From Allosphingosinicella indica (lineage in GTDB: Bacteria; Pseudomonadota; Alphaproteobacteria; Sphingomonadales; Sphingomonadaceae): DNA of 64,000 bases. The notes under the pieces were generated by a model. It worked only from the letters and a program-made list of their open reading frames with translations, made no database searches and was not told the DNA's origin. The first letter of the stretch is position 1. Every line of letters starts with the position of its first letter. Positions 39,509 to 43,556 of this stretch are shown one piece after another. The stretch lies in NCBI RefSeq assembly GCF_900177405.1, contig NZ_LT840185.1:1541501-1605500 (forward strand), read 5' to 3'. A program made the position numbers and the translations under genes.

Positions 39509-39669
39509 AGGAGCCTTGCGAGCACTGCGGCAGACTTATGCACGGCCCGGAGATGTTTCCAACGTGCGACCGGTGCACAACCGTGTTCGCCTACCGATGG
39601 CTTCGCGTAGTCGTGCCCGCTATTTTTGCTATCGCAATGCTTGTCATAATTCTGAACCAAACAGGATAA
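39505..39669 (+). CDS. 54-residue zinc-ribbon membrane protein
   Basis: This short frame starts with the ATGA overlap at 39505 and encodes 54 residues. Two C-x-x-C pairs (PCEHCG and TCDRC, about 14 residues apart) form a likely zinc ribbon, followed by a single hydrophobic helix (VVVPAIFAIAMLVIIL). The coupling to the previous gene and the clear two-part design support it as real. No named family is recognised. It ends in TAA about 50 bases before the IS1595-type element. Confidence 0.6.
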   Translation: MKEPCEHCGRLMHGPEMFPTCDRCTTVFAYRWLRVVVPAIFAIAMLVIILNQTG

Positions 39670-39716
39670 TATAGTTGACATCGTGACGCTGATCTGGCAC
39701 TAGGTAGGCGATTATG

Positions 39717-40761
39717 TAGTTTACAAACCCACCGATTGATGCCATAAGGAAGCATCAACGGAGCGGTTCACCATGTCGGTTCTTTCTTCCCCTCACTTCC
39801 ACGACGAAGCCAAGGCTTTCGAGTATCTGGAAAGCATCGTCTGGGCTGACGGAGTGACCTGTCCGCACTGCGGCGTTGTCGCCGGTCGCGTCTATGATCT
39901 GGCGGGCGTCCGTTCCAAGCCGAGCAAGAAGAGCCCGGAGGGCGTTGTCCGCCACGGCCTCAAGAAGTGTGGCGAGTGCCGCAAGCAGTTCACCGTCAAG
40001 GTCGGCACTGTTTTCGAGCACGCCCGCATGCCGCTTCACAAGATGCTACAGGCCGTTCACCTCATGGTGTCGAGCAAGAAGGGCATCAGCGCCCACCAGC
40101 TCGCTCGCGTTTTGGAAGTCCAGTATAAGAGCGCTTGGTTTCTCGCTCACCGCATCCGTGAAGCGATGCGCTCTGGCGATCTCGCTCCGTTCGGTTCGGG
40201 CGGCGGCGCTGTCGAGGTGGACGAAACCTATTTCGGCAACCGCAAGGGCGTTCAGAAGGGCCGTGGCGGTCACGCTCACAAGCTGGGCGTCCTGTCGCTG
40301 GTGGACCGCGCTACCGGCACCATGCGCTCTTTCACGTTCGACAAGTTCCGCGCCGAGCAGGTCCACCCGATCGTCCTCGCCAACATCAGCCGCGAAGCCC
40401 GCCTAATGACGGACGAAGCCCGCATGTATTCCAAGATCGGCAAGCAGTTCGCCGAGCACGGCACCACGCTTCACGGCGGTCACCAGTATGTCCACCCGGA
40501 GGACCGCACCATTCACACGAATACCGTGGAAGGCGCCTTCTCGATCTTTAAGCGCGGCATGCGCGGCGTCTATCAGCACTGCGGCGAGCAGCACCTACAC
40601 CGCTATCTGGCGGAGTTCGAGTTCCGCTATAACAACCGCATCGCGAATGGCGTCGATGATCGCGCGCGTTCGCACGAAGCGGTGCGGGGCATCGTCGGCA
40701 AGCGGCTGACATACGCTTCTTAATCAGGGAAGCATTCGACTTGATAGGTTTGTCAAAGCTA
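39717..40761 (+). mobile_element. IS1595-family insertion sequence
   Basis: The transposase gene is bracketed by imperfect inverted repeats: TAGTTTACAAACC at 39717 and, reversed, TAGCTTTGACAAACC ending at 40761. The resulting size of about 1.05 kb fits the family. I could not find a matching 8-base target duplication at these ends, so the true ends may differ slightly or the copy may be old. Confidence 0.6.
39773..40723 (+). CDS. IS1595-family transposase (ISXO2-like)
   Basis: The 316-residue protein has an N-terminal zinc ribbon (TCPHCG ... KCGECRKQF at ~residues 25-75) and an ISXO2-like catalytic domain. The DDE acids are probably in VEVDETYFGN, MTDEARMY and NTVEGAFSIFKRG, the last giving the D/N-E helix typical of the family. 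The frame is intact, so the enzyme may be active. It sits in the lower-GC accessory region and does not visibly interrupt a gene. Confidence 0.93.
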   Translation: MSVLSSPHFHDEAKAFEYLESIVWADGVTCPHCGVVAGRVYDLAGVRSKPSKKSPEGVVRHGLKKCGECRKQFTVKVGTVFEHARMPLHKMLQAVHLMVSSKKGISAHQLARVLEVQYKSAWFLAHRIREAMRSGDLAPFGSGGGAVEVDETYFGNRKGVQKGRGGHAHKLGVLSLVDRATGTMRSFTFDKFRAEQVHPIVLANISREARLMTDEARMYSKIGKQFAEHGTTLHGGHQYVHPEDRTIHTNTVEGAFSIFKRGMRGVYQHCGEQHLHRYLAEFEFRYNNRIANGVDDRARSHEAVRGIVGKRLTYAS

Positions 40762-40865
40762 TCCGAGTCAAACAGCTTGAACGGGCTTTTTTAAGGGGTT
40801 TTCGTTAGCTTCCGGTTTGGAAGTGACGAAACGCCCCGGAGAGGCTTCGCCAATTCCAGAGGTTA

Positions 40866-40962
40866 CGGACGCGGTGGGATTCGAACCCACGGGGGCGATG
40901 CTGTGATGGGCTACCCCGCCGGATTTTGAGTCCGGAGCATTAAACCGCTCTGCCACGCGTCC
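40866..40962 (-). tRNA. tRNA-Leu (anticodon CAA)
   Basis: The minus strand folds as a class II tRNA. The acceptor stem is GGACGCG/CGCGTCC, the anticodon stem CCGGA/TCCGG encloses loop CTCAAAA (anticodon CAA, reading TTG), and the T arm is GTGGG-TTCGAAT-CCCAC. No CCA is encoded. The variable arm is about 28 bases with a GGGG/CCCC stem, longer than the usual 11-23. Confidence 0.92.
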
Positions 40963-41010
40963 ATATTCTCTAAGCCCCCGGCCAGCTACCACTGGTCGGG
41001 GGCTTCACCT

Positions 41011-41406
41011 TTATCCTACCGCCCGTAACCCCTGTTCAAAAGGGGATTCTGCCTTCGGGGCGAACTGCTTCTCATAGTAGCGCTCACCGCTGTAAACGAG
41101 CGCGCCAGCAGATTTCAGCCGAGACAGGATCGAGCCCACGCTGTCCTTCGCAACCGTGGGCACCTTCTCGCGCACCATGTCGTCCACCTCCGCCGAGGTG
41201 GCGCCAGCAAATCCCACGCTACGCATAATGTCGATTACAAGCGGCTTCACTGGGGAGGATCGCTTGCGCGCGACGGCGGCGGGCTCCCCGCTGAAGCTGG
41301 ATCGGAGCTTAAGGAGCACCTCTTCTTGGGCGCGAAGCCGTTCGATCTCGGACCTGATACGGGCCAGCTCTGCGTCTATCATCTGCATTTGCTCTTTCGC
41401 GTTCAC
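41011..41406 (-). CDS. coiled-coil protein with winged-helix-like C-terminus
   Basis: The 131-residue protein begins at a GTG (41406) with AAAGGA about 8 bases upstream. Residues ~5-40 form a coiled coil (MQMIDAELARIRSEIERLRAQEEVLLKL). Residues ~55-118 look like a winged helix, with ATSAEVDDMVREKVP, SVGSILSRLKSAGALVY and a short wing. No family is recognised. The gene lies on the same strand between two leucine tRNA genes, 28 bases after one and 48 bases before the other, and is probably co-transcribed with them. It ends in TAA. Confidence 0.65.
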   Translation of the reverse strand: MNAKEQMQMIDAELARIRSEIERLRAQEEVLLKLRSSFSGEPAAVARKRSSPVKPLVIDIMRSVGFAGATSAEVDDMVREKVPTVAKDSVGSILSRLKSAGALVYSGERYYEKQFAPKAESPFEQGLRAVG

Positions 41407-41430
41407 GATTATATCCTTTGAAAGTGACAA

Positions 41431-41518
41431 TGGTGCCCGCAGCCGGACTCGAACCGGCACGCCCCGGAGAGGACTTTGGTTTTAAAGACCACTGCGTCTA
41501 CCATTCCGCCATACGGGC
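41431..41518 (-). tRNA. leucine-type tRNA with UUA anticodon (ochre-suppressor candidate)
   Basis: The minus strand matches the layout of tRNA-Leu(UAA): acceptor GCCCGTA/TGCGGGC, discriminator A, encoded CCA, D stem GCG/CGC, a class II variable arm and a GCCGG/CCGGC T stem. With A26 fixed, the anticodon stem is GTGGT/ACCAA (four pairs and a G-A mismatch at 27-43) and the 7-base loop is CTTTAAA, so positions 34-36 read UUA, which pairs with the stop codon UAA. A single A-to-T change at position 35 from an ordinary UAA anticodon would give this. It could be a suppressor, a decayed Leu tRNA or a sequence error. Confidence 0.8.
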
Positions 41519-41559
41519 ACGGGCGTATGGTAAATTGCCTCCGGAGATTCCGCAAGAGG

Positions 41560-41565
41560 TGTCAA
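41560..41565 (-). promoter_or_regulatory. TTGACA box upstream of the tRNA unit
   Basis: TTGACA on the minus strand lies about 42 bases before the 5' end of the leucine-type tRNA. No canonical -10 follows, but weak -10 boxes are common in alphaproteobacteria. A second TTGACA lies at 41604-41609. Confidence 0.4.
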
Positions 41566-41631
41566 CCGTGCTGAAAGTGCCGGAAAACTCCCGTTTCCGT
41601 CACTGTCAAGAAGTTGAAAGGACCCATTGTT

Positions 41632-41781
41632 ATGACGATTTCACCTGACCCTGCGCCGGGGCAACTCGACAAGTTCAAGCAGGCCGCTCGCGACCTAGAG
41701 ACGGACGATGACCCGGAGCGCTTTCGGGAGCGCGTAGGGAAGCTGGTGAAGCAGAAGCCGGTGGAGAATGGCGATGAGTAA
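41632..41781 (+). CDS. 49-residue hypothetical protein
   Basis: This short gene encodes a very polar, charged peptide (core DKFKQAARDLETDDDPERFRERVGKLVKQKP) that is probably helical. AAAGGA precedes the ATG at 9 bases. Its last codons overlap the start of the next gene (ATGAGTAA), indicating coupling. No family is recognised. Confidence 0.55.
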   Translation: MTISPDPAPGQLDKFKQAARDLETDDDPERFRERVGKLVKQKPVENGDE

Positions 41782-41983
41782 CCCAGAGACTGTTGGAGAT
41801 GGCATGGCTCTCGTCGCCGATACCCAGCGGCTACTACGTCGAGCCGACGAGGCGCTTGGGCAAGCGCCCTTAATGGGTCCGAAATTGCTCGGCGAACTGG
41901 TAGGGTCGACCGCCCATTTGAACGACGCGCTTCGGGAGAATATCGAGGCGATGGAAAAGGCTGTCGAAAAGCTCGGTCGCTAG
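41774..41983 (+). CDS. 69-residue hypothetical helical protein
   Basis: The product is a soluble helical peptide of 69 residues (LVADTQRLLRRADEALGQA, then LGELVGSTAHLNDALRENIEAMEKAVEKLGR). The ATG at 41774 overlaps the stop of the preceding 49-residue gene; an ATG two codons earlier is also possible. A pair of tiny overlapping genes resembles toxin-antitoxin or anti-defence gene arrangements, but no sequence family supports that. Confidence 0.55.
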   Translation: MSNPETVGDGMALVADTQRLLRRADEALGQAPLMGPKLLGELVGSTAHLNDALRENIEAMEKAVEKLGR

Positions 41984-41990
41984 GAACCTT

Positions 41991-42338
41991 TTACCGGCTT
42001 CGAAACAGATATTTCCCGACTAACAGCCAAAAGCCGAACACGGCCGCCGTCGTGGTTGTGAAGACAGCCACAAAAGCTCCATCGGACAGCCCTAAGCCGA
42101 GCGGCTTCAAGGAGAATTGCGCGATCGTTAGAACGATCAGGAAGCCGACCCAGGCTTGGGTAATGCCGTAGGCGTGGTCGGCGTAACGCATGCGCTCGCC
42201 TACGTCTTGCTCTTCGGAATCGTTTTTAATCCGCTTCTCGCGAAGGTCTTCGAGCTGTCTCTTCTCGGCTGAACTCGACGGCTCGCGAGCGACCTCAAAA
42301 GTCTCCTCGTTACTTACGTCAGGTAAGGTTGGCGGCAA
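41991..42338 (-). CDS. small membrane protein beside Panacea gene
   Basis: The protein has a charged helical N-terminal part (SSSAEKRQLEDLREKRI ... EEQDVGERMRYADHAYG) followed by two membrane helices (AWVGFLIVLTIAQF and FVAVFTTTTAAVFGFWLLVGKYLF). The threonine-run helix ending in GKYLF recalls a small phage- and defence-associated membrane family. The start is uncertain: an ATG at 42443 overlaps the Panacea gene by 125 bases, a TTG at 42338 overlaps by 20, and an ATG at 42191 would leave only the membrane part. It is the likely partner of the Panacea protein. Confidence 0.6.
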   Translation of the reverse strand: MPPTLPDVSNEETFEVAREPSSSAEKRQLEDLREKRIKNDSEEQDVGERMRYADHAYGITQAWVGFLIVLTIAQFSLKPLGLGLSDGAFVAVFTTTTAAVFGFWLLVGKYLFRSR

Positions 42339-42882
42339 GACGCTTAAAGTAGGCTCGGGTTGTGGCGTCGGGGATGGGATGGTGCTGTGGGACTCGATAT
42401 TCTCGCGCCGCCGCCTCAATCTGCCAAGGGGTCCCCACCTCATGCGTCATATCCGAAAGCTGGAGGGCATTGAGGTGCCCGTAACGGTTCCACACCCAAT
42501 CGACCCAACTGCGCGCCACGTCATCGGTCGCAGGTATCGTGGGGGGCGTGCGGTTAGGGCCTCCCACGGGTTTAGTAATGGGCGCGCTACCGAACGGCCG
42601 GAGAGCGCCGTAGAGCGAAGAAAATACAGGGCCATGCCTCCAAACCTGCGGCGGTTCATTTAGCACAGGCTGCGGATTGTAGGCGAGCCACCAGCCGTAG
42701 GCATAAAACGCCAGCTTCTGGAGCTTCATATGGTCAAGCGTATTGCTTGATCCATATCGCTCCACAAACGTGTTGGCCAAGGCTAGCGGTGTGTATTGCA
42801 CCTTTGCAATGTAGGATTGTTCTGCGCTTTCGTCGAGCGCTATCCCTTTAGCCCACTTGGTGAGGCACGCCCAAAGGCCCAT
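42319..42882 (-). CDS. Panacea (DUF4065, SocA-like antitoxin) domain protein
   Basis: The 187-residue protein carries the Panacea domain at about residues 50-160. The helix MKLQKLAFYAYGWWLAYN and the VWRHGPVFSSLYGAL segment are its signature. Panacea proteins include the Caulobacter antitoxin SocA and the PanA antitoxins, which neutralise many unrelated toxins encoded beside them. Here the adjacent same-strand gene encodes a small membrane protein that overlaps its end, an arrangement expected for a toxin-antitoxin pair. The N-terminal ~30 residues precede the domain and have no recognisable role. Confidence 0.82.
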   Translation of the reverse strand: MGLWACLTKWAKGIALDESAEQSYIAKVQYTPLALANTFVERYGSSNTLDHMKLQKLAFYAYGWWLAYNPQPVLNEPPQVWRHGPVFSSLYGALRPFGSAPITKPVGGPNRTPPTIPATDDVARSWVDWVWNRYGHLNALQLSDMTHEVGTPWQIEAAAREYRVPQHHPIPDATTRAYFKRLAANLT

Positions 42883-42961
42883 TCCCCACCTCCCCTCTGT
42901 GGGTTTGTAAAAGACAGATACGCCACTAGGTATCCACGCTGAAGAATTGCGAGTCGGGCAG

Positions 42962-42989
42962 GGCTCTCGGGTGACCGGGGGCCTTTTTT
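42962..42989 (+). terminator. plus-strand terminator upstream of GTA remnant
   Basis: GGCTCTCGG (42962-42970) pairs with CCGGGGGCC (42975-42983), including two G-T pairs, around GTGA and is followed by six T residues. As at 38907, no plus-strand gene lies upstream. It may be left over from a gene displaced by the accessory region, or end a short RNA. Confidence 0.75.
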
Positions 42990-43019
42990 CGTTGCGCCCG
43001 GCGTTTGGTGGGGTGGGCG

Positions 43020-43556
43020 ATGGTGGCGAAGCGGAGGGCGGTGCGGGGCGCGGTGCTGCGCGGCGGGGCTCGGCCCCGGATCGTGGCGGTGGCGCGCGAG
43101 CGGTGGGACAAGGCGACCGAGGACGCCTTCTTCATGGCGCTGGCGGAGGGGTGCAACGTCAGCCGTGCGGCGGCGGCGGCGGGGGTGAGCGACAGTGCGG
43201 CCTATCGCCGGCGGCGGACGCGGGCGGCGTTCCGCGCGCGCTGGGCGGCGGCGCTGAGCGAAGGCTATGCGCGGCTGGAGCTGGTGCTGCTGGAACGCGC
43301 GATGCAGGGCGTGGTGAAGGAGATCACTCGGCCCGACGGCAGCACCGACGTGGTGCGCGAATATTCGAACCAGACGGCGCTGGCGCTGCTCCGCATGCAC
43401 CGCGACGCGGCGCATGCCGCGGACAGCGAGCCGGAGGGCGCGGAGCTGGCGGAGCTGCGGGCGAAGATCGAGGGCAAGCTGAAGCGGCTGAAGGCGAAAC
43501 TGGCGGCGGGGGCGGCGGGGGTTGCTGAGGCGTCCGACCCTCACCGCTGCGACTAG
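43020..43556 (+). CDS. GTA/phage small terminase-like protein
   Basis: The 178-residue protein has a basic N-terminus, a helix-turn-helix-like region (FFMALAEGCNVSRAAAAAGVSDSAAYRRRR) and a C-terminal charged helix. This matches the small gene that precedes the terminase in alphaproteobacterial gene transfer agent (GTA) clusters. It would recognise DNA for packaging. Its last seven codons lie in a dispersed repeat element, so the C-terminus may have been altered by that insertion. Confidence 0.75.
   Translation: MVAKRRAVRGAVLRGGARPRIVAVARERWDKATEDAFFMALAEGCNVSRAAAAAGVSDSAAYRRRRTRAAFRARWAAALSEGYARLELVLLERAMQGVVKEITRPDGSTDVVREYSNQTALALLRMHRDAAHAADSEPEGAELAELRAKIEGKLKRLKAKLAAGAAGVAEASDPHRCD

Follow-up and report, generated by a model that had tools for sequence, protein, structure and literature searches.

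Within the 64,000-nucleotide stretch of the Allosphingosinicella indica genome analysed here (the window) lies a leucine-type tRNA gene with an anticodon complementary to the ochre stop codon UAA. We asked whether this gene is a damaged tRNA-Leu, a recent suppressor mutant or a member of a wider family. ARAGORN reported a single tRNA in the window, a tRNA-Stop with anticodon TTA at position 34 (41431-41518, minus strand), and missed the second tRNA of the locus (40866-40962). The Rfam model RF00005 matched the same gene at 41434-41518 with 57.2 bits (gathering score 29, E 1e-9). All arms of the cloverleaf (acceptor, D, anticodon, long variable and T) are there, along with A73 and an encoded CCA, so that the Leu-type cloverleaf, UUA anticodon and encoded CCA proposed in a first, sequence-only reading are borne out. 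The gene thus combines the mark of an ochre suppressor, a UUA anticodon (window bases 41485-41483) within a complete cloverleaf, with the leucine identity marks of a class II long variable arm and A73. The sole non-standard pair marked by Rfam is G27-A43 (bases 41492 and 41476). Folding by energy alone gave another structure, whose z-score (-1.5) is modest. On the strand of the tRNA, no promoter-like site was seen nearer than about 420 bases upstream, and that one scored just 9/12.

The host genome (2.8 Mb, a single contig scored 100% complete) contains 44 tRNAs by Rfam, both odd tRNAs of the locus counted. Five are ordinary tRNA-Leu genes, with anticodons UAA, CAA, UAG, CAG and GAG, so decoding of UUA codons is independent of the 41431-41518 gene. 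The tRNA-Leu(UAA) is the only other place in the genome with a DNA match to this gene (74%, E up to 0.001).

Table 1. Features of the insertion element that carries the UUA tRNA, in window coordinates.
Feature	Position	Strand	Basis or remark
Target-site duplication, left copy, 8 bp, ACTAGGTA	39699-39706		End probe and flank comparison
Left terminal inverted repeat	39707-39731	+	19/25 to L077 end probe; 20/25 to right end
IS1595-family transposase gene, 316 aa	39773-40723	+	Pfam, NCBIfam
Second odd tRNA: Ser-type body, anticodon CAA	40866-40962	-	Rfam RF00005, 57.6 bits
Partner gene, protein of about 131 aa (uncertain start codon)	41011-41406	-	Directly downstream of the tRNA
Leu-type tRNA, anticodon UUA	41431-41518	-	ARAGORN and Rfam
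Small gene, 49 aa, motif QLDKFKxAARxLETDDD	41632-41781	+	Divergent from the tRNA
ORF, 71 aa	41768-41983	+	Within the element; no Pfam match
ORF, 150 aa	41991-42443	-	Within the element; no Pfam match
SocA-like Panacea-domain protein (antitoxin-type domain)	42319-42882	-	Pfam PF13274, E 6.2e-12
Right terminal inverted repeat	42900-42924	-	15/25 to L077 probe; 20/25 to left end
Target-site duplication, right copy, ACTAGGTA	42925-42932		End probe and flank comparison

The tRNA is carried by an insertion element of the IS1595 family (39707-42924, 3218 bp) whose inverted ends are 25 bp long and which is flanked by an 8-bp target duplication. Its limits were found using the 25-bp end of a related element (L077, in genome G112) as a probe (Table 1). 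Elements of this family have terminal inverted repeats starting with GG and duplicate 8 bp of the target. Accordingly, GG stands at the start of both ends of the window element, next to the duplication. The transposase matches PF12762 (E 7.7e-34), PF12760 (E 3.2e-10) and the NCBIfam model transpos_IS1595 (E 9.5e-56), the first and last of which identify it as an ISXO2-like DDE transposase; that of a Novosphingobium element is 79% identical to it. The ends of the G112 element are alike at 24/25 positions, and perfect 8-bp duplications were found at L076, L077, L123 and L177. The duplication at L170 is imperfect and the left end of L076 starts with CG. The sequence-only reading had already listed the transposase and the coiled-coil gene among the neighbours of the tRNA; it had not recognised all of these, together with the inverted ends, as a single insertion element, nor the other wrong anticodons of the relatives. 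The 49-aa gene is common to most of the related IS1595-type elements examined. The SocA-like Panacea gene is extra cargo of the window copy; it lies beside the 150-aa ORF, with which it possibly forms a toxin-antitoxin pair.

Joining the two flanks of the element gave alignments across the junction in three genomes, G006, G008 and G019 (69-83 bases, 77-79%). The gene downstream of the element also aligned in G019 (66%, in order), and weakly in G008. G019 is the best empty site, because the downstream gene aligns there too and the junction motif recurs elsewhere in G006 and in G002; this motif, in which by eye TTGACA precedes GCACTAG, is possibly a promoter-like repeat. Downstream of the element, the window has a gene for a phage-type terminase and L076 one for a phage portal. 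In these two genera (window 39650-43020 and L076 8030-10700) a similar GCACTAG site stands ahead of the terminase or portal gene, which points to an insertion in a common ancestor or, alternatively, to a preferred target.

The gene directly downstream of the tRNA, separated from it by about 15-28 nt in most copies, is predicted to encode a long N-terminal helix followed by a winged-helix domain (coiled-coil/wHTH). Pfam searches with the proteins of the window, L076 and L077 gave no convincing family for this partner. Neither did the partners of the window, L242, L123, L241 and L244 give any match above the curated cut-offs, or with E <0.001, against PHROGs, NCBIfam and PADLOC. No PDB structure was matched by Foldseek at E up to 0.001, and no match was found in named phage or plasmid records for the window protein or the L242 protein. 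VIA-align matched the partner to common wHTH folds, among them that of SelB, an RNA binder. The partner is most likely a DNA-binding autoregulator, a role assigned from its fold, which is a common one and whose SelB match binds RNA.

How far the tRNA recurs was followed by DNA similarity and by pattern. DNA matches (E up to 1e-8) were found in 33/197 related genomes. Four matched places were left out of the comparison, and the UUA anticodon was seen in 2 of the 29 retrieved loci of other genomes, both in other genera of the same family (G105, G112). A pattern combining the Leu D loop with the UUA loop occurred in 4/397 genomes of the family, and a reversed control pattern in 2/397. ARAGORN recognised UUA-type Leu tRNAs in 17/118 named-genome loci, among the matches listed, and in 5/31 viral-contig loci; these scans select UUA and are therefore silent on anticodon choice. 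Among the named genomes are Marivita, Roseovarius, Pelagivirga, Sinisalibacter, Mesorhizobium, Novosphingobium, Rickettsiales, Rubrivivax, Lysobacteraceae and Woeseiaceae; several are metagenome bins. With four family genomes added and L180 set apart, the pattern-found set comprises at least 25 UUA tRNAs, and 9/25 have no partner homologue in the retrieved DNA. The anticodon arm GGUCUUUAAAACC and close variants of it thus occur in other genera and in viral contigs, which indicates an old family rather than a recent mutant and speaks against the single A35-to-U change that had been suggested for the window gene. The locus that was set apart, L180 (3133-3385), comprises Gly, Cys and Leu tRNAs in a cluster, the last with a UUA anticodon and, by eye, a fully paired stem; unlike the family, it is a candidate for a simple A35U change or an assembly error.

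We then compared 34 members, 27 with UUA and seven with other anticodons. L120 (an extra anticodon-loop base), L180 (the tRNA cluster) and L238 and L245 (repeats of L215 and L177) were left out. A73 and U33 are present in 34/34 members and the variable region measures 13-18 nt. Compensatory changes occur at acceptor pairs 2, 3, 4 and 6 and at T pairs 1-3; with the exception of 27-43, any given pair in the acceptor, anticodon or T stem is disrupted in one of the 34 members at most. This pair is missing in 23/27 UUA members, as compared to 0/7 of the others and 14/102 ordinary Leu tRNAs, 13 of these 14 being viral. The difference between UUA members and ordinary Leu tRNAs has a p value of 4e-12 with kinship ignored, a value that overstates independence since the sequences are related. 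A43 is found in 21 of the 27 UUA members, and the G27-A43 mismatch is a class mark of the UUA members. Mutations of 27-43 were reportedly the subject of Schultz and Yarus in 1994, and G27-A43 in E. coli tRNA-Thr that of Komine and Inokuchi in 1990. According to the accessible part of a recent survey (PMC13092985), suppressor tRNAs occur in 0.3% of the genomes analysed there, 4-bp anticodon stems are found in 20.5% of tRNA-Sup(UUA), the missing terminal stem pair is linked to stop read-through, and a 4-bp-stem tRNA-Trp reads through UGA in E. coli.

Anticodon choice was addressed with a profile of the partner protein, a search independent of the anticodon, in the class, order, phylum, one family and viral contigs. 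Matches were found in at least 7/385 genomes of the class, at least 4/396 of the order and at least 1/398 of the phylum (the window's own genome), all three frequencies being lower bounds since no more than 10 candidates were scored in each genome, and in 3/14 of the one family and at seven viral loci. Two further viral scans by partner gave nothing new. All distinct hits were rescored with a profile built solely from UUA-linked proteins (A1), L084 being included as a cut partner. Eleven hits scored 96-186 bits (G000, G105, G1271, L238-L244 and G774, the last at L232). A class II tRNA with a Leu body stands directly upstream in 11/11, and a Leu anticodon in 0/11. Four of these had belonged to the UUA set beforehand and had gone into the profile (G000, G105, G1271 (= L177) and L238 (= L215)). 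The seven new ones carry UUA (L239, L240), UGG for Pro (L241, L242), UCC for Gly (L243, L244) and ACC for Gly (G774), and thus a Leu anticodon in 0/7. For nine further hits, at 30-56 bits (G812, G522, G635, G539, G800, G1342, G1361, G1363 and a second place in G774), the upstream DNA contains no Leu-body tRNA; the wHTH family thus extends beyond the cassette.

As a background, Leu-body tRNAs were parsed from viral contigs by their D-arm pattern; of 120 viral loci listed, 54 held no parsed patterned tRNA (some truncated or odd), and 72 tRNAs remain. Among the matches listed, 62/72 have a Leu anticodon, and a weak partner match (E 0.0016) goes with 1/72. Fisher tests against this background, among the matches listed, gave p 7e-6 for 0/7 and p 2e-8 for 0/11. 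Partners that are 57-58% identical pair with UGG (L242), UCC (L244) and ACC (L232), showing that the anticodon changes while the partner stays. Some minor observations were made in these scans. In G539 (L236 1375-2228) a distant partner (39.8 bits) is followed downstream by two near-identical Leu-body tRNAs with the Ala anticodon UGC. A viral contig (L259 3918-4002) carries a Leu-type body with the Ser anticodon UGA and no partner match. At the viral loci L252, L256, L271, L286, L300 and L322 a Leu-like D arm leads into an abnormal middle part, the sequences being broken, intron-bearing or tRNA-like.

On sequence evidence these tRNAs make up a family, which we call tRNA-LeuX, with a class II Leu body, A73 and a non-Leu anticodon, usually beside a coiled-coil/winged-helix gene; the window gene is a functional-looking member predicted to read UAA. 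Several explanations of such a gene have to be weighed. A sequencing error or a decaying tRNA-Leu pseudogene is hardly credible: the G27-A43 mismatch, taken in the sequence-only reading as a warning of decay, would fit it, but the same arm and the same missing pair are found in independent assemblies, in other genera and in homologous elements, with the other stems kept paired through compensatory changes. Conservation thus speaks against both decay and error. Stop recoding, in which the suppressor would let the element or a co-resident phage make read-through proteins with in-frame UAA, is improbable. UUA is the commonest anticodon, though most members were sought by UUA, and UUA tRNAs are present at viral loci (the 5/31 above); however, no conserved extension lies behind the stops of the transposase, partner and small gene, and the partner-linked relatives with Pro and Gly anticodons would be unable to recode stops. 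Read-through of the element's own genes was considered and rejected, as the stops of these three genes vary and the sequence 3′ to them is unconserved by eye. The earlier hint that neighbouring genes end in TAA lost its weight with related elements, where the equivalents stop at TAA, TAG or TGA. No conserved need for UAA read-through was seen in any of the element genes. A comparison in all frames, with TAA/TAG read as X, gave mostly shadow frames and the tRNA itself among the matches listed.

Phage tRNAs are known as an answer to tRNA-cutting defence, and a spare tRNA body might likewise resist or absorb host anticodon nucleases. Several members do lie in viral contigs, two of them adjoining a phage integrase. 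A decoy for a tRNA-Leu nuclease should nevertheless retain a Leu anticodon, which none of the 11 partner-linked tRNAs does, and it is hard to see what an IS element would gain from a decoy; we regard this explanation as very unlikely. Less easily set aside, although still unlikely, is a tRNA-like RNA acting outside translation, as a processing signal, a decoy or a ligand of the partner, whose anticodon would be free to drift to anything except Leu. The tight spacing between tRNA and partner, the three anticodons found with partners 57-58% identical, and the poor stems and absent CCA of the second tRNA in some elements are all consistent with such a role. Against it, the cloverleaf is intact, U33 and A73 are invariant, and loss of 27-43 is confined here to the UUA class, as selection on decoding predicts.

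We therefore favour, as the probable explanation, a mobile cassette on an IS1595-family element that combines a mis-anticodoned tRNA, predicted to be charged by LeuRS, with a probable regulator. Charging by LeuRS is independent of the anticodon, so leucine is expected at the codon of any anticodon placed on a Leu body. The host LeuRS, already named as the likely charger in the sequence-only reading and supported as such by the identity marks, would charge tRNA-LeuX. Ochre suppressors also read UAG through U34 wobble; the charged UUA tRNA would thus put leucine at UAA and, less often, at UAG, and the missing 27-43 pair may boost its efficiency. The partner, which by position belongs to the same transcription unit, would act as a winged-helix DNA-binding autoregulator limiting expression, as its fold suggests. 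The system would yield controlled read-through where the anticodon is UUA and, in the relatives, missense with Leu in place of Pro, Gly or Ala. In line with this, the available text of PMC11415595 describes anticodon variants of tRNA-Leu as potential mistranslators.

The closest precedent is tRNA-ProX of Streptomyces. As described in the accessible parts of PMC11415595 and PMC10365949, the tRNA-ProX/ProRSx systems of Streptomyces and Kitasatospora share with tRNA-LeuX a mismatch between body and anticodon, several anticodons and an adjoining partner gene; they have a Pro body, A33/A34 and a partner synthetase, and belong to Actinomycetes. In contrast, tRNA-LeuX has a Leu body, U33, a winged-helix partner, mobile elements and a stop-reading class. 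In the window, the class II body is of Leu type and not that of a tRNA-Pro, and no ProRSx-like synthetase adjoins the tRNA, the neighbour being the 131-aa coiled-coil/wHTH protein. According to the same source text (PMC10365949), tRNA-ProX has toxic effects in E. coli, where two of its members conferred carbenicillin resistance. The ochre suppressor and 4-bp-stem tRNAs of PMC13092985 resemble tRNA-LeuX in the UUA anticodon and the missing terminal anticodon-stem pair; the accessible text mentions neither a Leu body nor a transposon or partner protein ('transpos' and 'tRNALeu' each occur 0 times). tRNA-LeuX may help account for the frequency of 4-bp stems among the UUA suppressor tRNAs reported in that part of the survey, and its members offer a natural suppressor set for probing the role of the 27-43 pair.

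Other IS1595-family elements with passenger genes share the same build, namely a zinc-ribbon transposase of the ISXO2-like DDE type, inverted ends and a duplication of 8 bp; the window element is set apart by its cargo of a mis-anticodoned tRNA and a winged-helix gene. No IS1595-type cargo of this kind was found in the titles and abstracts of a partial set of the literature. Likewise, the titles and abstract openings covered, again a partial set with supplements outside it, contained no case of a mobile element that carries a mis-anticodoned tRNA with a Leu body. Taken singly, suppressor tRNAs, mistranslating tRNA families and IS cargo have all been described before; their combination and the variable anticodons appear to be new. 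Toxin-antitoxin operons with a DNA-binding autorepressor are a known system, to which tRNA-LeuX is similar in being a short mobile operon of two parts, one of which probably binds DNA; it differs in that its putative effector would be a tRNA. A bolder and only tentative proposal, which we hold to be unlikely, is that the cassette represents a new class of mobile system, in which a mis-anticodoned tRNA effector (reading stop, Pro, Gly or Ala codons as Leu) would be held by a co-transcribed winged-helix protein. It would then be toxin-antitoxin or abortive-infection-like, with mistranslation released on element loss or phage attack. To our knowledge, natural tRNAs that deliberately breach the genetic code have been described in very few bacterial families. 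A compact and mobile system, in which a single tRNA body goes with various wrong anticodons and the same partner, would show mistranslation to be a trait that can be traded.

Finally, the window element carries another odd tRNA downstream of the partner gene, with G73, a very long variable arm and no encoded CCA. Its anticodon CAA corresponds to the Leu codon UUG, the Ser type and the anticodon being assigned by eye. No second tRNA was seen in the L076 element. In L077, L078, L177 and L245 the second tRNA downstream of the partner has an Arg-like body (by eye) with CGU, and elsewhere its anticodon is GCU (L085, L239, L232) or GGU (L147).
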